A model generated the notes under the pieces. The model made no database searches, was not told the origin of the DNA, and was given only the letters and a program-made list of their open reading frames with translations. A DNA stretch of 64,000 nt from IMG/VR virus record IMGVR_UViG_3300027917_000041, positions 1 to 64,000 of that record, one strand, 5' to 3'. This document shows, in pieces, positions 166 through 27,083 of the stretch (positions are counted from its first letter, which is position 1; each line of letters starts with the position of its first letter). The position numbers and the translations under genes are program-made. This DNA is from a virus.

Positions 166-471
166 TTACAGATTGCCGTAAACTCTGCCGATTACGAAAT
201 CAAACTCGAACACATCAATGACCATGCTAACCATGTCCGCTGTAAGTACCTGATCTACAGCGTCCGGTTTGTAGTTCTCGTATACTTCGATTTGCCAATC
301 TGCCCTACCATTACCAGCAACCAATAATAGACCTTGTGAATATTCTTCATCTTTATTAGCTTCATCAACATATCCCTGAAACTGCATCATAGCTTCTTTG
401 ATATTGTTAGCTACAATAACTGCCTTTATCTCCTCGAACTCCTCAAACAAATAAATCTTTATAGTTTCCAT
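166..471 (-). CDS. Hypothetical protein, 101 aa
   Basis: Not recognised. A small acidic soluble protein with no signal peptide or membrane segment. Its ATG overlaps the stop of the ribonucleotide reductase (TAATG), and an AGGAGT ribosome-binding site precedes it, so it is translationally coupled and is the last gene of the minus-strand operon. The roughly 110 bases beyond its stop hold nothing clear except the opposing terminator. Confidence 0.7.
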   Translation of the reverse strand: METIKIYLFEEFEEIKAVIVANNIKEAMMQFQGYVDEANKDEEYSQGLLLVAGNGRADWQIEVYENYKPDAVDQVLTADMVSMVIDVFEFDFVIGRVYGNL

Positions 472-3080
472 TAATTTACTCCTGTATTTAAGATTTGAAA
501 TAGTTTGCTATTGGTACGATAGATTGTACCACCTTTGAGATTAGATACCCACATGGCTATTATAGCCTCATAGATATCCACTGGCGTACTTTCTTCTGGT
601 AAGTTGATAGTCTTTGAGATAGCATTATCAACCGACGATTGCCAGTTTGCTTGCATTTTTATATGCCATTCCGGATGTATCTCTTGAGAAGTCCTAAAGC
701 TGGGCTTTACCTTGTCGTAAATTTTTCCAGCACCTTCTAAAGTACCTTGTCTTTCGATACGTCTAGTTAATATCTCTATCTCGTCCTCGGAATAACCATA
801 CTCCATAAGTCTACGGAATAGTATTGGATTGACTTCTGTGACCACTTCCTTAGCTTCATTACCCACACCATCTGTAATGTTCCTCGTATAAGCTAGGGCA
901 AAGAAAGGTTCTATACTGGAATTTACACCAGCAAGTAACGAAATTGAACCTGTTGGTGCAATGCTTGTCACAGCAACATTTCGTAAACCTAAGTGCCTTA
1001 CATCAACTTCTTCGATCTGTTTCGCGGCATATTCTGGATTATTCAAGATACGCATGACAGTACGTAAATCAACCTTTTCGCTATCATACATATCAAATAC
1101 ACCACGTTCATCAGCCAATGCCATAGATTGTAGATAAGCAAAGTAGGTAATGAACCAACTCAGCCTCTTAGCCAAGTCCAAAGCTTCATCAGAATCATAT
1201 GGTATATCTAACTCAGCCAACAAGTCAGCCCACCCCATAACTCCCAAACCAATACGCCTTAGACCTTTAGACCACTCATTTATATCTTGTATTGGTGTTT
1301 CGCTAATTTCCTGTACGCTATCTAAGAACGTTACAGCATTACGTACAATAAACTCTAAAAATTCCCAATTCACATCGTTAGTAGCTGCATTGTACATCTT
1401 GTGTAAATTGATTGAACCTAAACAGCATGGCTCATATCTCAGCAAAGGTACTTCACCGCAGTTTGCCGATACAATACCAGTAAAGAAGTCTTTGGTTGAG
1501 TCGGGGTCTGCTATTACATAGGCGTGGGTTTCATCCACCACACCATTGTAAACGTCGGATTTGCCCGCTGGTTTTACAGATACTACTTTGTGGTTCTTAC
1601 TAAACCCGGCTCTGTGGCGTTCTGCATAGTGAATGCTATTATGCATCGCCGGGGTTAGGGCTTGCAAATTATCCCAATGGTTGTCATTTTCAATCATATT
1701 TAGGTGGTGGATAATATGCCCTTCCGGAATCCCACCAAAGAAATACTCATAAACCATTCTAGCTGTATACTGATGTTGTACTTTGCCCTCAGCATACCCA
1801 TGCACTCTAACGTGACCATCCTTGTGTACTTCTCCCCTATAAGCACGGATAGATTGCCCAACCTTAAGGTCTTTAGCCTCTACCTTTTTACCTCGAATGG
1901 TAAATAAATTATGGTCAGGCGTACATCTAAGTTTTAGACCACTATCAAACTCTACTTCTAAAACGTCTACATTTTCTCTGGTCTTACGAATATCGTGCAT
2001 GATTGCTACTTCTGGTAGTTTGGTTTCTTTATTCCATGTGTAAACTAGGACATCAAAACCTTCTTCTTCAAGTTCCTTGATAGGTTTAGCACCTTCTAAG
2101 ACGGTCATGATAAGTGTATCACCAGTAACGCATGGATTAGTTACTTCCAAATTACCAAGATATTTCACCATATTATCTTCATTTGCTCTATCCAAAAATA
2201 ATACACCGGGATCACCACTAGCCCAAGATTGCTCAGCTATAGAAAACAATAATTCCCTAGCGTTGACTGTTTTGGTTACGCTACCGTCTACTCTAGAAAT
2301 CAAATTCCAATCTTCATCGTTTACTACGGCGTTCATAAAATCATCCGTAAGTGCGACCGAAATGTTGAAATGAGTAAGCTGGTCATCTACCAATGTCTTT
2401 TCTAAGATGTCAAAATAAGCCTTGCCGTCTGTGGCTTTTCTAGCCCTACGTAAATGGTCTTTGTACGTGTCCAAAAGTCTAGCGTTTCTTTGATTTGGTT
2501 CTGACTTGAAATGAATAAACTTTTCAATGTCTGGATGGTCAATGTTCAATACACCCATTTGAGCACCACGCCTAGACGCTTGCTGGATTACTTCACCAGT
2601 GTTATCAAACAAACTCATAAAGCTAAGTGGGCCGCTTGCCTCTCCACCTGTAGTTTTGATACGTGCGCCTTCTTCCCTTAGATTAGAAAAGTTGTATCCC
2701 AAACCACCACCCCAAGCAAAAATCTCAGCTGCGTTACCCAAAGTTTGATATATTGATTTACGACTATCATCAATAGGTAACACAAAACAATTATTAAGAT
2801 TTTTAATATCCGTACCTGCGTTCGCTAATATCCTACCGCCGGGGATAAAAACTAACTCGTTTATCATGTTGTAAAAGGTATCGATCTTACGTTCCTCATC
2901 TTCCTGCACTTCTTTTACATTCTTACCTTTGTCTACTATATCTTTATCATGATAAGCGTAAGCAACGTTAATAGCAACCCTAAGACACGTTTGTTTCCAA
3001 GTTTCAACGTTCCCTTGCTCGTCTTTAAGGGCATACTTTCTTTCATGTATTAGTTTACCAATAGGATTTAGCTCTGCCAT
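471..3080 (-). CDS. nrdJ: Adenosylcobalamin-dependent (class II) ribonucleotide reductase with an intein
   Basis: It should reduce ribonucleotides to deoxyribonucleotides using a cobalamin-generated thiyl radical. Visible are the first redox cysteine in NNC (Cys98), a class II-like stretch around RRGAQMG and DHPDIE (residues 170-187), the active-site NPCGE split by an intein (residues 317-540), PCCLGSINL after it, and APTGSIS in the phosphate-binding region. Without the intein it is about 645 residues. The C-terminus stops at ILNTGVN and lacks the CxxC-rich redox tail usual in NrdJ; a protein encoded at 29596-29787 looks like that missing domain. No NrdB-like gene is visible, which favours class II. 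It is co-transcribed with dUTPase and other nucleotide genes. Confidence 0.93.
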   Translation of the reverse strand: MAELNPIGKLIHERKYALKDEQGNVETWKQTCLRVAINVAYAYHDKDIVDKGKNVKEVQEDEERKIDTFYNMINELVFIPGGRILANAGTDIKNLNNCFVLPIDDSRKSIYQTLGNAAEIFAWGGGLGYNFSNLREEGARIKTTGGEASGPLSFMSLFDNTGEVIQQASRRGAQMGVLNIDHPDIEKFIHFKSEPNQRNARLLDTYKDHLRRARKATDGKAYFDILEKTLVDDQLTHFNISVALTDDFMNAVVNDEDWNLISRVDGSVTKTVNARELLFSIAEQSWASGDPGVLFLDRANEDNMVKYLGNLEVTNPCVTGDTLIMTVLEGAKPIKELEEEGFDVLVYTWNKETKLPEVAIMHDIRKTRENVDVLEVEFDSGLKLRCTPDHNLFTIRGKKVEAKDLKVGQSIRAYRGEVHKDGHVRVHGYAEGKVQHQYTARMVYEYFFGGIPEGHIIHHLNMIENDNHWDNLQALTPAMHNSIHYAERHRAGFSKNHKVVSVKPAGKSDVYNGVVDETHAYVIADPDSTKDFFTGIVSANCGEVPLLRYEPCCLGSINLHKMYNAATNDVNWEFLEFIVRNAVTFLDSVQEISETPIQDINEWSKGLRRIGLGVMGWADLLAELDIPYDSDEALDLAKRLSWFITYFAYLQSMALADERGVFDMYDSEKVDLRTVMRILNNPEYAAKQIEEVDVRHLGLRNVAVTSIAPTGSISLLAGVNSSIEPFFALAYTRNITDGVGNEAKEVVTEVNPILFRRLMEYGYSEDEIEILTRRIERQGTLEGAGKIYDKVKPSFRTSQEIHPEWHIKMQANWQSSVDNAISKTINLPEESTPVDIYEAIIAMWVSNLKGGTIYRTNSKLFQILNTGVN
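1461..2132 (-). other. Intein with HNH homing endonuclease inside the RNR active site
   Basis: Residues 317-540 of the RNR ORF interrupt the active-site motif NP/CGE. The element starts with CVTGDTLI (splicing block A, Cys1) and has a block B-like CTPDHNLF with Thr and His. An HNH-type endonuclease follows (IIHHLNMIENDNHWDNLQAL, then H-SIH). Block F is at VYNGVVDETHAYVIA and the element ends in FTGIVSAN. The next residue is Cys, as required for splicing. The residue before the terminal Asn is Ala rather than the usual His, which occurs in a minority of inteins. At 224 residues it is a small intein with an HNH, not LAGLIDADG, nuclease. Confidence 0.92.
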
Positions 3081-21522: not shown

Positions 21523-23450
21523 TAGTGCCTCCAAGTTTTAGATAACATACTATCAGCTTTCGCAGGAATATCCTTAAGAAATACCTGCTCAGCTTCCTCC
21601 ATTGTTGCAACCACGAACGCCTCAGCTTCTTCCGCTATACTTTCGTGTACTTCCCACACACCTTCATCGTGTACGGTCAGCAATAGTTTAAATAAATCTC
21701 CGAAGGGGTTTCTATGATATATGTCTACCAAGGCTATCTTTAAAATGTCGGCAGACCCACCCTGAATAATAGTATTAATTCCCCTTCGGAGTACAGATGC
21801 TTTTATTTTTGCTTTTTCATCGCCATCCTCAAAGATTTCAGGTATGTCAAAATAACGCTTTCGACCAAAAGGCGTAATAGAGTAACCAAGTTCCCAAATC
21901 TTCTCACCTGCCAACTCAATGAATTTTGCGATATAGGGATATGCGGCAAAATAAGCTTCCAAGTGTGCCTCTCCCTCGTATTGTGGTATACCAAAATTAT
22001 ACTCCAAACCATAGGCTGTAGAACCATAGACGATAGCAAAATTGATTGATTTTCCTCTACTTCTCTGTTCCTTTGTAACAATGTCATATTCAACCCCATA
22101 AATATTTGATGCTGTCAACACATGAATATCCAACTCATTGTTATAAGCGTCAATAAATGCACGTTCATTTGCAACAGCACCCAATAAACGCAATTCTGCT
22201 TGGTTAAAGTCTACGGTTAATAAAAGATGATCCTTGCTTGCCTCGAAACATTCTCTATAACGAGCCTCTGGATCATCTTCATTCTCTCCAGGTATCTGCT
22301 GTAAGTTGGGTTTTTCGCAACTCCAACGTCCGGATACTGTACCAAGTTGATTAAATTGTGCATGTAACCTACCCGTTTTTGGGTTTATTTTATCAAGAAA
22401 ATCCTCACCGTAGGAATTGATACGCTTTGAATACGGTTTGAATTCCAAATAGTCACGAATAACTTCATGATGCTTAAATCGAGCCAATTCTTTTTTATTG
22501 GCACTAGGCACATAAACTTTACTATATGTCAATATCTCTTTGAACTGTGCAGGACTGTTTAAATTCAGCCACTCACGCACAATACCTGCTACAGTTTTTC
22601 TATCGGTAATCCCTTCCATTGGATCACGATCACGCTTTAGTTTTACCTGCAACTTTAGCTTGTCAACAACTGTCAAAGCGTCAGCGTCACCAACCAATAG
22701 TTTATCCAAAGCCGGGTTAATCAAAGTATCCTTTAGCTTTTCTTCCCACACCTTTTGACGTTCAATAGCAGACGCAGTAATTTCCTTCCAAAGTTTTTGA
22801 TTTACAGATACACCTTCAAGCTCCATCCAAGCAACTTGAGGCAATAACTCCATTTCTAAATCTGCTGTTTTGGTTAGGTTCTTTTCTTCTAGTTCAACAC
22901 AAATACTTTCGTATAAGTCTACTAAGTTTAAAACGTCTTTTGCGGCATACAAGTACATTTCCTGAGTTACGATTGTAGCACCAATGAAATCTTCTCGTAC
23001 ATCCTTTTCCATTACAATATCAAGATGCTTAAATAGCAATGATTGTAATGATACAAACGGTCTACCAAGTCCGGTATTTGCCACCCCATCACCAATCATG
23101 GTATCGAAAACGTTCTCAATCCCTACACCTGTATTGGCTTTAATAACTTTTATATCAAATTTGATGTTATGTCCGACACATAGAGCGTCACTGTCTAGAA
23201 GTGCCTGTGCCACAAAAGTCATGTGGTTTTTCAGTCCTACAATATCAAAAACAAAAACAGTTTCGCCTATAGATACTTGCATAAGTAGCCATCTGTCGTT
23301 AAACGGATCAAGCCCTGACGACTCAACATCTAATCCAACAATGTCGACAAAGGGCAAGGCTTGTACAAATTCTTCTATTCCAGCTGTATCCTCAACTAAT
23401 CTTAGTTTCAATGTCCTAAAACCTCTACTATTCCTGCTCTCGGTATCCAT
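21522..23450 (-). CDS. polA: Family A DNA polymerase with 3'-5' exonuclease domain
   Basis: This is the replicative polymerase of the phage. Exonuclease motifs are LDVESSGLDP (D41, E43), VGHNIKFDIKVI and YAAKDVLNLVDLY, so proofreading looks intact. Polymerase motifs are SGRWSCEKPNLQQIP, motif A DFNQAELRLLG, the O-helix RSRGKSINFAIVYGS with Lys, Phe and Tyr in place, and motif C TVHDEG (near residue 595). There is no 5'-nuclease domain, and the 642 residues match phage PolA types. The start is uncertain: ATG 23450, or TTG 23411 overlapping the RNase H stop with GAGG upstream. Confidence 0.95.
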   Translation of the reverse strand: MDTESRNSRGFRTLKLRLVEDTAGIEEFVQALPFVDIVGLDVESSGLDPFNDRWLLMQVSIGETVFVFDIVGLKNHMTFVAQALLDSDALCVGHNIKFDIKVIKANTGVGIENVFDTMIGDGVANTGLGRPFVSLQSLLFKHLDIVMEKDVREDFIGATIVTQEMYLYAAKDVLNLVDLYESICVELEEKNLTKTADLEMELLPQVAWMELEGVSVNQKLWKEITASAIERQKVWEEKLKDTLINPALDKLLVGDADALTVVDKLKLQVKLKRDRDPMEGITDRKTVAGIVREWLNLNSPAQFKEILTYSKVYVPSANKKELARFKHHEVIRDYLEFKPYSKRINSYGEDFLDKINPKTGRLHAQFNQLGTVSGRWSCEKPNLQQIPGENEDDPEARYRECFEASKDHLLLTVDFNQAELRLLGAVANERAFIDAYNNELDIHVLTASNIYGVEYDIVTKEQRSRGKSINFAIVYGSTAYGLEYNFGIPQYEGEAHLEAYFAAYPYIAKFIELAGEKIWELGYSITPFGRKRYFDIPEIFEDGDEKAKIKASVLRRGINTIIQGGSADILKIALVDIYHRNPFGDLFKLLLTVHDEGVWEVHESIAEEAEAFVVATMEEAEQVFLKDIPAKADSMLSKTWRH

Positions 23451-23863
23451 ACGATCTCTACTTGATCTTTGAATTCACGAGACTTAACCCGGCTATACAA
23501 TTTTCTAGCTCGTTTGTTGAGCTTTTTTAGTATCGGGTTGTTAACCTTCCATCCATTTACCGTCTGTTTCACGGTTAGTTTACTATCACAGTAGATAGTC
23601 CACTTTGTATTTCTGTGGTGTTTCATGTAAAAATTGACATACTCTAGGAGTTTAATCATAGATTCATACTCTGCTTGGTTGCTAGTCTTTGAGTCTAAGT
23701 TAAAAGTTTCTGACCTAATCAATTCATCCTTTCCAAATACTGCAAAACTTCCATAAGCATCAGAGTGTGTCTTATTATTACAGCCACCATCTACGTAAGC
23801 TGTGATGTTTCTCAAATTTTCTGCCTCCTCGGACTGAGGAGCACTTCTAAAACTAATATCCAT
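23408..23863 (-). CDS. rnhA: RNase HI-like protein, probable leaderless mRNA
   Basis: It would remove RNA primers from RNA-DNA hybrids. AYVDGGCNN carries the first Asp, SNQAEYESM the Glu and IYCDSKL the second Asp. The C-terminal histidine and last Asp region appears shortened (ending WIPRAGIVEVLGH), so the fourth catalytic acid is not visible. A perfect promoter (23870-23898) ends six bases before the ATG, placing +1 on the start codon, and no ribosome-binding site exists. Confidence 0.85.
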   Translation of the reverse strand: MDISFRSAPQSEEAENLRNITAYVDGGCNNKTHSDAYGSFAVFGKDELIRSETFNLDSKTSNQAEYESMIKLLEYVNFYMKHHRNTKWTIYCDSKLTVKQTVNGWKVNNPILKKLNKRARKLYSRVKSREFKDQVEIVWIPRAGIVEVLGH

Positions 23864-23898: not shown

Positions 23899-23912
23899 GT
23901 ACTAATTTTAGG

Positions 23913-23983
23913 CATACCCAGCTGGACTTGAACCAGCACCGAGGGGTTTGGAGTCCCTAATGCTACCATTACACCACGGATAT
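23913..23983 (-). tRNA. tRNA-Trp (CCA)
   Basis: Cloverleaf with anticodon loop CTCCAAA (U33, anticodon CCA), T-loop TTCAAGT and discriminator G, followed by CC-TA. The pair closing the anticodon loop is an A-C mismatch. Last tRNA of the array. Confidence 0.88.
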
Positions 23984-23990
23984 GTATAGG

Positions 23991-24062
23991 AGCGTGTGAC
24001 AGGAGTCGCACCTGCACCGTATGGTTGGAAGCCACCCATGCTACTGTTAACACCACACACGC
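23991..24062 (-). tRNA. tRNA-Gly (TCC)
   Basis: Acceptor GCGTGTG/CACACGC perfect; anticodon loop CTTCCAA. The T-loop reads TGCGACT instead of TTCGANT, and the outermost anticodon-stem pair is mismatched. Discriminator T then CC-TA. The only Gly tRNA. Confidence 0.85.
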
Positions 24063-24069
24063 ACTTAGG

Positions 24070-24157
24070 CGGAGAATACAGGGATCGAACCTGTACATCG
24101 GAGTTACCGACATCACCGTTTTCAAGACGGATAAGCACGCCAGCCTTGCGACTCTCC
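24070..24157 (-). tRNA. tRNA-Ser (TGA)
   Basis: Class II tRNA with a long variable arm; anticodon loop CTTGAAA, T-loop TTCGATC, acceptor GGAGAGT/ATTCTCC, discriminator G then CC-TA. Confidence 0.9.
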
Positions 24158-24162
24158 GTAGG

Positions 24163-24247
24163 CGGAAGGTAGAGGGATCGAACCTCTGCATCCGGTTGGA
24201 TGGTTATGGTTTAGCAAACCAGCGCATTACCACTCTGCCAACCTTCC
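24163..24247 (-). tRNA. tRNA-Ser (GCT)
   Basis: Long variable arm; anticodon loop TTGCTAA, acceptor GGAAGGT/ACCTTCC, discriminator G then CC-TA. Reads AGC and AGT. Confidence 0.9.
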
Positions 24248-24253
24248 AATAGG

Positions 24254-24337
24254 TCGCTATGGCAGGATTCGAACCTGCATGGACACATGCCCACCATGGT
24301 TTGAGCATGGCGTGTATACCAATTCCACCACACAGCG
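24254..24337 (-). tRNA. tRNA-Leu (CAA)
   Basis: Long variable arm; anticodon stem CCATG/CATGG around CTCAAAC; T-loop TTCGAAT; discriminator A then CC-TA. Reads TTG. Confidence 0.9.
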
Positions 24338-24342
24338 ATAGG

Positions 24343-24416
24343 TGCTGAACCCTAGACTCGAACTAGGAATCTTCCGCGTATCAGACGGATGCGTTAACCA
24401 GTTACGCTAGTCCAGC
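24343..24416 (-). tRNA. tRNA-Ile (GAT)
   Basis: Acceptor GCTGGAC/GTTCAGC, anticodon loop CTGATAC, T-loop TTCGAGT, discriminator A then CC-TA. Reads ATT and ATC. Confidence 0.9.
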
Positions 24417-24422
24417 ATTAGG

Positions 24423-24494
24423 TGACTCTACAGGGGATTGAACCCTGATTCTCAGCTTGAGGGGCTGATGTCCTATCCATTAGACGATAGAGCC
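24423..24494 (-). tRNA. tRNA-Glu (CTC), C33
   Basis: Anticodon stem TCAGC/GCTGA closes loop CCCTCAA: anticodon CTC, but position 33 is C instead of the near-universal T. T-loop TTCAATC; discriminator A then CC-TA. Confidence 0.82.
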
Positions 24495-24501
24495 ATATAG
24501 G

Positions 24502-24583
24502 TGCTCTAGAGAGGAGTCGAACCTCTACGCCCGAAGGCACTTGGGTTTAAGTCAAGCGTGTCTGCCAATTCCACCACAAGAGC
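24502..24583 (-). tRNA. tRNA-Leu (TAA)
   Basis: Long variable arm with a TTCG loop; anticodon loop CTTAAAC, T-loop TTCGACT, discriminator A then CC-TA. Immediately follows the RNase P RNA in the transcript. Confidence 0.9.
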
Positions 24584-24585
24584 AT

Positions 24586-24777
24586 TTTAGACCACCCGTA
24601 GGCAGGATTCTGTTCTATGCTATCATTTATCTTTGCACCAACCCGACTATTATAGCGTAGCTCACCCGCTAAGTCTGTTTGGCTTGCTACCTAGGTAGTG
24701 CAAACGGCTTATGCCTCCTACCGTGAGCTAAGTAGTCCTGACCTTCCTCTGTTTCCAGCGATAGCTCGATGGTCTTA
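24586..24777 (-). ncRNA. rnpB: RNase P RNA, compact form
   Basis: This is the catalytic RNA that removes 5' leaders from pre-tRNAs, read on the minus strand. P1 pairs 24770-24775 with 24589-24594. P2 pairs GCTATC (24765-24760) with GATAGC (24624-24619). P3 is a minimal CTG-GAAA-CAG hairpin (24758-24749). The universal core is present: GAGGAAGGTCAGGACT as conserved region I, and AGATAAATGA then ACAGAATCCTGCC as conserved region V. P4 forms from AGG-U-CAGGA (24744-24736) with TCCTG-CCT (24607-24600), leaving the hallmark single bulged U. An 8-bp P5/P7-type helix pairs 24723-24730 with 24658-24665. At about 190 nt it is half the usual bacterial length; the specificity domain and P15-P17 are much reduced. 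It fills the space between tRNA-Cys and tRNA-Leu. Confidence 0.93.
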
Positions 24778-24779
24778 GG

Positions 24780-24851
24780 AGTCCTAGGTGGGAGTCGAAC
24801 CCACTCTACAGCGTTTTGCAGACGCTTTCCTAGCCATTCGGAATCTAGGAC
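24780..24851 (-). tRNA. tRNA-Cys (GCA)
   Basis: Acceptor GTCCTAG/CTAGGAC perfect, anticodon stem AGCGT/ACGCT around CTGCAAA, T-loop TTCGACT, discriminator T (the Cys identity base), then CC-TA. Directly upstream of the RNase P RNA. Confidence 0.91.
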
Positions 24852-24858
24852 ATTTAGG

Positions 24859-24929
24859 CTGAGGGTACTGGATTTGCACCAATGATACTTGGTTCAGAGC
24901 CAAGGGGTTTACTGTTAGCCTAACCCTCA
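24859..24929 (-). tRNA. tRNA-Gln (CTG)
   Basis: Acceptor TGAGGGT/ACCCTCA, anticodon stem CTTGG/CCAAG around CTCTGAA, T-loop TGCAAAT as in many Gln tRNAs, discriminator G then CC-TA. Confidence 0.9.
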
Positions 24930-24936
24930 GTATAGG

Positions 24937-25010
24937 CGGTTACTACGAGATTCGAACTCGCATATTCTTCCTTGACAGGGAAGCCCATTAACCAATTATG
25001 GTAAGCAACC
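24937..25010 (-). tRNA. tRNA-Asp (GTC)
   Basis: Acceptor GGTTGCT/AGTAACC, anticodon stem CTTCC/GGAAG around CTGTCAA, T-loop TTCGAAT, discriminator G then CC-TA. Confidence 0.91.
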
Positions 25011-25017
25011 ATTATGG

Positions 25018-25091
25018 AGCTGAATACTGGATTCGAACCAGTACTTCTTGGTTACAAAGCAAGCGTGCTTGACCATTAACACTAATCCAGC
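25018..25091 (-). tRNA. tRNA-Thr (TGT)
   Basis: Acceptor GCTGGAT/ATTCAGC, anticodon loop TTTGTAA, T-loop TTCGAAT, discriminator T followed by CC-AT. One C-C mismatch closes the anticodon loop. Confidence 0.88.
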
Positions 25092-25098
25092 TTGTAGG

Positions 25099-25170
25099 TG
25101 ACATCTGACGGATTCGAACCGACACTTCCCTGATTGAAAGTCAGGTGTCCTTCCAGTAGACGAAGATGCC
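25099..25170 (-). tRNA. tRNA-Glu (TTC)
   Basis: Anticodon stem CCTGA/TCAGG around CTTTCAA, T-loop TTCGAAT, discriminator A then CC-TA. Reads GAA. Confidence 0.9.
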
Positions 25171-25171
25171 A

Positions 25172-25222
25172 TACCGCAGGGCTTTCGCCCTGCACCCTGC
25201 CACGAATGGTCAGGGGTGATAG
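25172..25222 (-). other. Structured tRNA spacer: two tandem hairpins
   Basis: On the minus strand, CACCCCTG can pair with CAGGGTG, followed at once by a perfect GCAGGGC-GAAA-GCCCTGC hairpin with a GNRA tetraloop. No T tract, so not a terminator. Confidence 0.5.
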
Positions 25223-25223
25223 G

Positions 25224-25297
25224 TGCAGGATACAGGACTCGAACCTGTGTTCTCTTTTTTGTAAGAAAAGCGATTTCACCAGCTAATCTAATCCTGC
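25224..25297 (-). tRNA. tRNA-Val (TAC)
   Basis: Acceptor GCAGGAT/ATCCTGC, anticodon stem CTTTT/AAAAG around CTTACAA, T-loop TTCGAGT, discriminator A then CC-TA. The only Val tRNA. Confidence 0.9.
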
Positions 25298-25302
25298 AAA
25301 TT

Positions 25303-25348
25303 GGTCTTGTTTTTGTAGCTTCTGGTACAAGACCGTAAACCTAGCTAC
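25303..25348 (-). other. Possible H-type pseudoknot in a tRNA spacer
   Basis: GGTCTTGT (25303-25310) pairs with ACAAGACC (25327-25334). GTAGCT (25315-25320), inside that loop, pairs with AGCTAC (25343-25348) outside it. Interleaved perfect pairings of 8 and 6 bp define a classical pseudoknot on either strand. Confidence 0.5.
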
Positions 25349-25354
25349 CGCAGG

Positions 25355-25427
25355 TGGACAAGACGAGATTCGAACTCGTATTACTTCTGTGCAAGAGAAG
25401 TGTGTTCCCAATTGTCACTACTCGCCC
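25355..25427 (-). tRNA. tRNA-Ala (TGC)
   Basis: Acceptor GGGCGAG/CTTGTCC with two wobbles, anticodon loop CTTGCAC, T-loop TTCGAAT, discriminator A then CC-TG. The only Ala tRNA. Confidence 0.9.
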
Positions 25428-25431
25428 AAGG

Positions 25432-25505
25432 TACTCCGTGGAGGATTTGAACCTCCATCTCGTAGGTTAAGAGCCTAGTGGGTTAGCCGTTAACCCCAAC
25501 GGAGT
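25432..25505 (-). tRNA. tRNA-Lys (CTT)
   Basis: Acceptor ACTCCGT/ACGGAGT perfect, anticodon loop CTCTTAA, T-loop TTCAAAT, discriminator A then CC-TT. Reads AAG. Confidence 0.9.
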
Positions 25506-25506
25506 A

Positions 25507-25596
25507 TGTACATCCAGTCTACGTTAATCGGAACCTCGTCCGATGCTTATATGCGTGTCCAGCGTAGACCAGTGAGAGCCGCTAAGCTCCCTATAG
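25507..25596 (-). other. Structured 90-base spacer, possible unknown small RNA
   Basis: On the minus strand, hairpin GGGAGC/GCTCTC is followed by a 7-bp helix GTCTACG/CGTAGAC. That helix encloses a 6-bp hairpin ATCGGA/TCCGAT and an unpaired purine-rich stretch. It is as long as a tRNA but has no T-loop or anticodon arm. Confidence 0.45.
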
Positions 25597-25597
25597 G

Positions 25598-25678
25598 TGC
25601 GCCCGGAGAGAGTCGAACTCCCACAGCTTATAGCGGGTGGTTTACAGCCACTTGGACTCGCCATTGTCCAGCAGACGC
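25598..25678 (-). tRNA. tRNA-Tyr (GTA)
   Basis: Long variable arm as in bacterial tRNA-Tyr; anticodon loop CTGTAAA, T-loop TTCGACT, discriminator A then CC-TA. Confidence 0.9.
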
Positions 25679-25684
25679 ATTAGG

Positions 25685-25757
25685 TAGCGGAGGACGGAGT
25701 TGAACCGACTTGGGACAGTTTATGAGACTGCCGAGTTTACCGAAACTCTACTCCGCA
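25685..25757 (-). tRNA. tRNA-Met (CAT), partly initiator-like
   Basis: Anticodon loop CTCATAA. The acceptor has a T1-T72 mismatch and the D-stem has A11-T24, both features of bacterial initiators. However, the anticodon stem (GCAGT/ACTGT) lacks the three G-C pairs. Discriminator A then CC-TA. The only CAT tRNA in the array; a lysidine-type Ile tRNA is less likely because an Ile TAT tRNA is present. Confidence 0.87.
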
Positions 25758-25764
25758 ATATAGG

Positions 25765-25840
25765 TACTGGCACTTGGATTCGAACCAAGACCTTACAGTT
25801 TAAAAGACTGATGTGCTAGACCGTTAAACACCATACCAGT
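25765..25840 (-). tRNA. tRNA-Lys (TTT)
   Basis: Acceptor ACTGGTA/TGCCAGT, anticodon loop CTTTTAA, T-loop TTCGAAT, discriminator A then CC-TA. Confidence 0.9.
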
Positions 25841-25849
25841 ATATTTAGG

Positions 25850-25920
25850 TGTAGACCCCCGGAGTCGAACCGGGCTTGTCCGGGCTTCAACCGGATGCAT
25901 AACCACTCTGCCAAGTCCAC
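25850..25920 (-). tRNA. tRNA-Phe (GAA)
   Basis: Anticodon stem TCCGG/CCGGA around TTGAAGC (G37), T-loop TTCGACT, acceptor GTGGACT/GGTCTAC, discriminator A then CC-TA. Confidence 0.9.
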
Positions 25921-25927
25921 ATTTAGG

Positions 25928-26000
25928 TACTCGCACTAGGATTCGAACCTAGACTCAACCGTATATAAGACGGACGTGTTCACCATTACACTATGCGAGT
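25928..26000 (-). tRNA. tRNA-Ile (TAT)
   Basis: Acceptor ACTCGCA/TGCGAGT, anticodon loop CTTATAT, T-loop TTCGAAT, discriminator A then CC-TA. It reads ATA directly, without needing lysidine modification of a CAT anticodon. Confidence 0.9.
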
Positions 26001-26007
26001 ATGTAGG

Positions 26008-26079
26008 CTGAGGGTGAAGGGGTCGAACCTCCATTTCAGGCTTCAAAGACCTTAGTCTTTACCATTAGACGAACCCTCA
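26008..26079 (-). tRNA. tRNA-Gln (TTG)
   Basis: Acceptor TGAGGGT/ACCCTCA identical to the other Gln tRNA, anticodon loop CTTTGAA, T-loop TTCGACC, discriminator G then CC-TA. First tRNA behind the internal promoter. Confidence 0.88.
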
Positions 26080-26087
26080 ATATTGAC

Positions 26088-26116
26088 ATTATAACACAAA
26101 AATTGATATTTGTCAA
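26088..26116 (-). promoter_or_regulatory. Internal promoter of the tRNA array
   Basis: TTGACA at 26116-26111, a 17-base spacer ending TGT, TATAAT at 26093-26088. It would transcribe tRNA-Gln (TTG) to tRNA-Trp and the RNase P RNA. Confidence 0.88.
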
Positions 26117-26131
26117 GTACCAATTTCTAGG

Positions 26132-26203
26132 AGCATCTAGCAGGGGTCGAACCTGCACTACTTGGTTCGTAGCCAAGTGGTCTATCCATTAGCCTATAGA
26201 TGC
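26132..26203 (-). tRNA. tRNA-Arg (ACG)
   Basis: Acceptor GCATCTA/TAGATGC perfect, anticodon stem ACTTGG/CCAAGT around CTACGAA, T-loop TTCGACC, discriminator T then CC-TA. Would need A-to-I editing (TadA) to read CGC and CGA. Confidence 0.9.
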
Positions 26204-26209
26204 ATTAGG

Positions 26210-26281
26210 CGCAACCAAGAGGACTCGAACCTCTTCCATGGGCTTAGAACACCCTTATGCGATCCACTACACCATGGTTGC
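26210..26281 (-). tRNA. tRNA-Arg (TCT)
   Basis: Acceptor GCAACCA/TGGTTGC perfect, anticodon loop GTTCTAA, T-loop TTCGAGT, discriminator G then CC-TA. Its 5' end overlaps the 3' end of a possible small gene. Confidence 0.88.
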
Positions 26282-26419
26282 AATTTTATGTAAGATACGC
26301 CAAAATAGGTTATCTCGTTTCCAGATAGAAGTATGATCTTCTCTAAATCCCCATAGAAAATACCAGTCTATCTTAATACCACCTTTCTTGCGTTTGCTTA
26401 CCTTACCAATTTTTGTCAT
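26267..26419 (-). CDS. Possible 50-aa basic protein inside the tRNA array
   Basis: The frame runs from ATG 26419 (MTKIGKVSKRKKGGIKIDWY) to TAG inside tRNA-Arg (TCT). The N-terminus is basic and the middle aromatic. It fills the only 140-base gap in the array without a recognised RNA. No good ribosome-binding site is visible, so coding status is uncertain. Confidence 0.35.
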   Translation of the reverse strand: MTKIGKVSKRKKGGIKIDWYFLWGFREDHTSIWKRDNLFWRILHKIATMV

Positions 26420-26422
26420 AGG

Positions 26423-26494
26423 CACTCAGGGGCGGGGTCGAACCACCGTCACCACGGTTAACAGCCGTGTGCATTACCATTATGCTACCCGAGT
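26423..26494 (-). tRNA. tRNA-Asn (GTT)
   Basis: Anticodon stem CACGG/CCGTG around CTGTTAA, T-loop TTCGACC, acceptor ACTCGGG/CCTGAGT, discriminator G then CC-TA. Confidence 0.9.
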
Positions 26495-26501
26495 GTATAG
26501 G

Positions 26502-26575
26502 GGTAATCGGTGAGTCTCGAACTCACTATAACTGTGTTCACAGCACAGCGTCGCACCAGTTTGACTTCGATCACC
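26502..26575 (-). tRNA. tRNA-His (GTG)
   Basis: Anticodon stem CTGTG/CACAG around CTGTGAA, T-loop TTCGAGA. With acceptor GTGATCG/CGATTAC the gene encodes the extra G-1 (26575) opposite C73, the bacterial His identity pair. Followed by CC. Confidence 0.9.
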
Positions 26576-26582
26576 ATATAGG

Positions 26583-26664
26583 TGCTTCTCGTGGGAGTCG
26601 AACCCACATGAGTCTCCTCACTAGTTTCTAAGACTAGAGCGTATACCAATTCCGCCAGAGAAGC
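26583..26664 (-). tRNA. tRNA-Leu (TAG)
   Basis: Long variable arm, anticodon stem CTAGT/ACTAG around CTTAGAA, T-loop TTCGACT, acceptor GCTTCTC/GAGAAGC perfect, discriminator A then CC-TA. Confidence 0.9.
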
Positions 26665-26669
26665 ATAGG

Positions 26670-26740
26670 TCAAGGTGAGAGGAATCGAACCTCTTCCGCA
26701 GAGTCCCAAACTCCGTGTGCGGCCATTACACCACACCCTG
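26670..26740 (-). tRNA. tRNA-Pro (TGG)
   Basis: Anticodon loop TTTGGGA with G37, T-loop TTCGATT, acceptor CAGGGTG/CACCTTG, discriminator A then CC-TA. First tRNA of the array in the direction of transcription. Confidence 0.9.
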
Positions 26741-26902: not shown

Positions 26903-26931
26903 ATTATACCATAAAAAGTTGCATTTGTCAA
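26903..26931 (-). promoter_or_regulatory. Main promoter of the tRNA array
   Basis: TTGACA at 26931-26926, a 17-base spacer ending TGG, TATAAT at 26908-26903, about 160 bases before tRNA-Pro. Confidence 0.88.
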
Positions 26932-27054: not shown

Positions 27055-27083
27055 ATTATAACACAGAATAGGGAGTTTGTCAA
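27055..27083 (-). promoter_or_regulatory. Opposing minus-strand promoter
   Basis: TTGACA at 27083-27078, a 17-base spacer ending TGT, TATAAT at 27060-27055. It points leftward from inside the leader of the rightward transcript, toward the tRNA array. Confidence 0.82.

Follow-up and report, generated by a model that had tools for sequence, protein, structure and literature searches.

RNase P RNA is among the few ribozymes that nearly all cells keep, and viruses had been assumed to depend on the RNase P RNA of their host. The bacterial protein subunit, RnpA, binds the catalytic domain of the RNA. Among archaea, the type T RNAs of Pyrobaculum and relatives possess P6 but no P18, and their specificity domain is degenerate (PMC5839562). 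The catalytic domain of the E. coli RNA cleaves on its own, about 120-fold slower with the C5 protein than the full RNA (18 vs 2161, Table 1), is helped by a P6-mimic and can dispense with P18 when C5 is absent (PMC5839562). CPR bacteria harbor diverged RNase P RNAs that score under the Rfam cut-offs and in which several helices, P18 and sometimes P12 are missing (PMC8172020). T4 tRNA precursors display spacers under five nucleotides and UAA instead of CCA (PMC11143913). The main text of the huge-phage paper PMC7162821 reports tRNAs and tmRNAs, with no mention of RNase P. No report of a phage RNase P RNA was found in the literature searched, which comprised open-access main texts.

The window analyzed here (64,000 nucleotides, positions 1 to 64,000 of the IMG/VR virus record IMGVR_UViG_3300027917_000041) harbored such an RNA on the minus strand. 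The Rfam model of bacterial class A RNase P RNA (RF00010) matched positions 24583-24777 (minus) over model positions 1-367, with 61.5 bits and an E-value of 4.1e-17. RF00010 was the best match for this RNA within its Rfam clan and had no other match in the whole 72,450-base record. The score lies below the gathering cut-off (100 bits), so the RNA would escape routine annotation. A covariance model built from 12 other phage RNAs, with the window RNA excluded, found it at 24597-24749 (158.8 bits, E-value 5.5e-31) as the single match in the 64 kb window, which rules out an artefact. Single-sequence minimum free energy folding was moderately better than shuffles (z -1.88), a method blind to pseudoknots and uninformative here because the RNA contains two of them. 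The gene (24584..24777, minus), placed by RF00010 and the held-out phage model, combines a type A catalytic domain with a one-hairpin specificity domain; its 194 nt fill the whole gap between tRNA-Cys and tRNA-Leu, as delimited by ARAGORN, with no spare bases. An earlier note, made from the letters alone, had proposed that the phage encodes an RNase P RNA of about 190 nt within a tRNA array. The Rfam search that it put forward as a check gave the significant, full-length match described above (E-value 4.1e-17), and the held-out model and the ARAGORN flanks bear the proposal out as well. The RNA is almost certainly an RNase P RNA catalytic domain under selection.

The type A catalytic domain is complete: P1-P5, the P6 pseudoknot, P15-P17, CR-I, CR-IV, CR-V and the CCA-binding GGU are present, all on the minus strand. 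P1, P2, the P3 hairpin with its GAAA loop, CR-I, CR-V and P4 with its bulged U were all as the earlier note had described them. The 5' strand of P1, AGACCAUC (24768..24775), pairs with GGUGGUCU (24589..24596), and P3 is a minimal hairpin, CUG-GAAA-CAG (24749..24758); both were assigned by eye and from the RF00010 alignment, and both lie outside the covariation test. P2 (GCUAUC, 24760..24765, with GAUAGC, 24619..24624) covaries in alignment A2, where helices 1-2 were 77-92% paired. CR-I (24736..24749) includes the 5' strand of P4, AGG-U-CAGGA (24736-24744, bulged U at 24741), whose partner is UCCUGCCU (UCCUG-CCU, 24600..24607); 8 of 8 pairs are formed in the window, and both strands are backed by covariation. 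CR-V, placed by the RF00010 and A-series alignments, spans 24608..24632 and comprises AGAUAAAUG (24624-24632) and ACAGAA (24608-24613). P5 joins CUAC (24732..24735) to GUAG (24687..24690), with 84 of 84 cells paired across 21 RNAs; its 3' strand, also placed by the RF00010 alignment, continues into GCAA of CR-IV.

P6 is a covarying pseudoknot between UAGCUCA (24724..24730) and UGAGCUA (24658..24664) in the P17 loop, with 99.1% of cells paired (helix 5). It counts 7 bp, against the 4 bp of E. coli (82-85 with 276-279; PMC5839562). P15 (GCC/GGU), P16 (GACU/AGUC) and P17 (UAGCG/CGCUA) occupy 24637..24683, and in an alignment of 16 RNAs 95.8%, 94.7% and 84.8% of their cells, respectively, were paired, with changes on both sides. 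The P6 pseudoknot thus occurs together with P16/P17, a set that marks type A and is absent in type B. The L15 GGU (24641..24643), the motif that binds the tRNA 3'-RCC(A), was present in 21 of 21 RNAs.

Relative to full-length type A, the losses are P18 and the specificity domain, the latter down to one small hairpin. Some relatives, such as locus L044, have extra sequence at the place of P18. The P7-P14 specificity domain with CR-II and CR-III, which bind the T-loop, was not found; the 19 nt between the P7 strands (24699-24717) leave no room for CR-II/CR-III. The remnant (24694..24722) consists of P7 (GGUAG/CUACC, 105 of 105 cells paired) closing a GGC-AUAA-GCC hairpin, and includes a conserved GA / GNUUGCA internal loop (alignments A1-A3; window 24699-24717) that is perhaps a substitute contact to tRNA. 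The earlier view that the specificity domain and P15-P17 are both cut down therefore stands for the specificity domain only: P15, P16, P17 and a lengthened P6 are present and covary.

The carrier is a phage genome. The record encodes a terminase, a portal, a tape measure, tail proteins and an endolysin, along with a DnaB helicase, a family A DNA polymerase, a RecA-like recombinase and a ribonucleotide reductase, the large subunit of which (471-3080, minus) contains an intein carrying an HNH endonuclease. Compared with 50,697 phage records, the terminase had a single, distant match at 25% identity, and a search for related isolated phages with a named host matched uncultured records alone. RnpA (PF00825) was detected neither in this record nor in 44 other carrier or candidate records (45 searched; controls detected). 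The host protein is thus probably borrowed.

ARAGORN placed the RNA in an array of 28 tRNA genes for all 20 amino acids (23911..26740, minus), between tRNA-Cys(GCA) directly 5' (24778..24851, minus) and tRNA-Leu(TAA) directly 3' (24500..24583, minus). The tRNA 3' ends read N-CC followed by U in 27 of 28 genes (26 with UA or UG-type trailers, mostly UA), tRNA-Thr (25015-25091) being the sole one to encode CCA; RCC is therefore available for binding by the L15 GGU. Spacers are mostly 2-7 nt. In its N-CC-U ends and short spacers the array is similar to T4 precursors, whose maturation requires trimming and CCA repair, and it is of the same character as those treated in PMC11143913. Two perfect TG-extended matches to the TTGACA-17-TATAAT promoter consensus stand ahead of the array (27055-27083 and 26903-26931, minus), and a further consensus match lies inside it (26088-26116, minus). 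An RNase H gene (23408-23863, minus) follows directly after the array with its own perfect TTGACA-17-TATAAT in front. A gap of 139 nt in the array (26282-26420) contained neither a tRNA call nor an Rfam match.

We scanned 2.9 million viral contigs with sequence patterns and scored the matches with Rfam and our own covariance model, which gave 58 distinct members of one architecture, nearly all viral, from dozens of other phages. The mini RNase P RNA is thus a member of a widespread family and not a peculiarity of one phage. The first viral scan also picked up several loci that fitted the pattern by chance, lacking CR-I or an RF00010 match. In the first set of 21 RNAs, cells were paired at 167 of 168 in P4, 84 of 84 in P5 and 105 of 105 in P7; a pattern without the P4 filter returned the same 21 RNAs with none dropped, which rules out the filter as the cause of the covariation. 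A sequence-only alignment of 16 RNAs, window included, was paired in 94.9% of 663 cells, compared with 74.2% when shuffled and 28-47% with partners slid, and 30 of the 42 pairs displayed changes on both sides.

The covariation of P4 relative to E. coli, proposed in the earlier note, extends to the whole family: over 58 distinct cores, 462 of 464 cells were paired (shuffled mean 340, maximum 363) in 40 different duplexes, and the bulged U was kept in 57 of 58 RNAs, a set not wholly free of selection for P4 since our model contains the P4 pairs. One scan, which supplied part of the 58, used no part of CR-I, P4 or CR-V; all eight P4 pairs were formed in the 37 of its RNAs with both ends locatable. 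The pairing and the U bulge kept across 58 RNAs indicate strong selection for a working catalytic core. One terminase profile matched 19 of 45 carrier or candidate records, a floor, because that profile missed the terminase of the window itself. tmRNA genes adjoin the RNase P RNA in four carriers (L133, 1020-1389; L130, 1926-2242; L123, 10573-10892; L124, 2675-2992), those of L123 and L124 bearing an asterisk in ARAGORN.

A smaller class of about 160 nt, comprising four distinct RNAs (L016, L034, L047, L079) and their near relatives (L088, L123, L124), has no specificity domain at all; here the P6 strand serves as the loop of a P5 hairpin. Rfam extents were 158 nt for L034 (8982-9139) and 161 nt for L047 (7648-7808, minus), and both RNAs end at the first base or two of the downstream tRNA. 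Two carriers of this class measure 243 and 328 kb and encode a terminase. A TTGACA-17-TATAAT-like sequence lies just upstream of P1 in L079, with a close variant in L088. Its members may be the smallest bacterial-type RNase P RNAs.

Five of the eight published huge-phage records tested, all five between 484 and 735 kb, harbored the mini RNA: LR756501 (735 kb), LR756502 (642 kb), LR745206 (635 kb), LR756511 (595 kb) and LR756508 (484 kb). We take these LR-series records to be those of Al-Shayeb et al. 2020. Rfam at E 0.01 detected nothing in four of the five; the fifth copy (L174) displayed a weak match to the archaeal model RF00373, alone in the family.

Among 84,980 species genomes, an exact mini-domain pattern gave two true matches; because this pattern recovers just some of the known members, cells may hold further, rarer copies. 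Both matches, from an Acidimicrobiia bin (L149/L162, that is G059 C14) and an Armatimonadetes bin (L145), have near-identical mini RNAs and tRNA arrays. The Acidimicrobiia bin also encodes an ordinary full-length rnpB (300.8 bits), which our model scored at 22.3 bits against 109.1 bits for the mini form. The contig with the mini form carries helicases and a methyltransferase, and none of its proteins that were tested was clearly a phage structural one, so the family may occupy other mobile elements too; this contig may be a plasmid or another mobile element. A blastn search for plasmid copies with the window and L149 RNAs returned none.

The reading that best fits these observations, to which we assign a probability of about 0.78, is that of a functional trans-acting phage RNase P ribozyme working with host RnpA on phage tRNAs. 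The window RNA itself is presumably catalytic. The RNA would be transcribed together with the tRNA array, its 5' end freed through 3' maturation of tRNA-Cys, while RNase P cleavage at the 5' end of tRNA-Leu would also free its 3' end. It would then bind the RnpA protein of the host and cut the 5' leaders of pre-tRNAs. With the T-loop site lost along with the specificity domain, the RNA would recognize its substrates by the acceptor stem, by N-1 and, through the L15 GGU, by the N-CC at the tRNA 3' end. Maturation of the phage arrays could in this way be sustained while host transcription is off or host RNase P is limiting. By analogy, the engineered E. coli catalytic domain counts against a functional ribozyme, as it is a weak enzyme.

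The RNA could instead be an enzyme mainly for non-tRNA substrates, such as host transcripts or phage mRNAs, the relaxed specificity left by the missing T-loop site being its very purpose. In several carriers, some large among them, no tRNA lies within 2 kb of the RNA gene, as this reading would predict. However, wherever tRNAs occur within 2 kb they lie on the same strand, and at least three of them adjoin the gene in half of the carriers (26 of 52); array adjacency is not universal, as the other half have fewer than three. The GGU for the tRNA 3' end, invariant in the 21 RNAs of the first set, also speaks for tRNA substrates, and we consider this alternative unlikely.

Slightly less probable still is that the phage RNA acts as a decoy that binds RnpA to lower or redirect host RNase P but has no enzymatic activity of its own. 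The catalytic domain that binds RnpA is indeed kept, and the 45 records searched are devoid of an RnpA of their own. Yet P4 with its bulged U, CR-I, CR-V and the substrate-binding GGU, all kept by selection, would be unneeded in a decoy, and siting within tRNA arrays favors use on tRNAs.

A purely cis-acting element, which would cut its own polycistronic transcript and be inert afterwards, is very improbable: the zero-base spacing to flanking tRNAs in the window, L034 and L047 speaks for it, but in many relatives the gene is remote from any tRNA, and in one small-class group a promoter-like sequence of its own stands just upstream. Host contamination, or a decayed rnpB captured from a host, which the sub-cut-off RF00010 score and the full-length rnpB matches above 200 bits in some IMG/VR contigs might have suggested, is refuted by compensatory changes throughout the RNA and its presence in five published huge-phage genomes, and conflicts also with the phage structural genes on the same record and with the bacterial bin that holds both full-length rnpB and the mini form.

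Beyond the trans-acting ribozyme of the window, a broader proposal appears reasonably probable: a separate phage lineage of RNase P RNA, mostly in huge phages, would have shed its specificity domain stepwise down to c. 160 nt, forming with host RnpA a hybrid virus-host RNase P adapted to tight tRNA arrays. If true, this would be the smallest bacterial-type RNase P RNA and the first viral one. Since the family is large and natural, and keeps the catalytic domain while dropping the specificity domain, it offers dozens of natural answers on the minimal needs of the ribozyme, to which the 40 different P4 duplexes add. The finding also adds one more component to the translation-support apparatus that phages bring, and bears on the processing of phage tRNA arrays with very short spacers; binding and processing of multimeric pre-tRNAs are called an open question in PMC11143913 (section 11).

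The known systems closest to the phage RNA include bacterial type A (RF00010; E. coli M1 RNA), with which it shares P1-P5, the P6 pseudoknot, P15-P17, CR-I, CR-IV, CR-V, the bulged U of P4 and the L15 GGU. It differs in its length of about 190 nt against 367 model positions, its one-hairpin specificity domain without CR-II/CR-III, the absence of P18, a longer P6, a P4 sequence that drifts freely with pairing kept, and its encoding by phages. It resembles CPR RNase P RNAs in its sub-cut-off Rfam score and missing helices, P18 included, but those are a cell's own RNA, while the scan for the mini form gave two true matches in the 84,980 species genomes, one of them in a bin with a full-length rnpB. 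With archaeal type T, as described in PMC5839562, it shares the degenerate specificity domain, P6 and the lack of P18; its match to the bacterial class A model, its L15 GGU and its place in phages would set it apart. Huge phages that encode translation genes (Al-Shayeb et al. 2020, PMC7162821) are a further system to compare, the mini RNA being carried by five of the eight LR-series records tested. The engineered E. coli catalytic-domain RNA (Eco CP RPR, PMC5839562) is likewise a catalytic domain without specificity domain, with P6 pairing and no need of P18, and the phage form matches that combination, with P6 lengthened to 7-8 bp and P18 lost. The phage RNA, by contrast, occurs in nature, and a conserved small hairpin caps its P5/P7; in the smaller class it is the P6 strand that closes P5.
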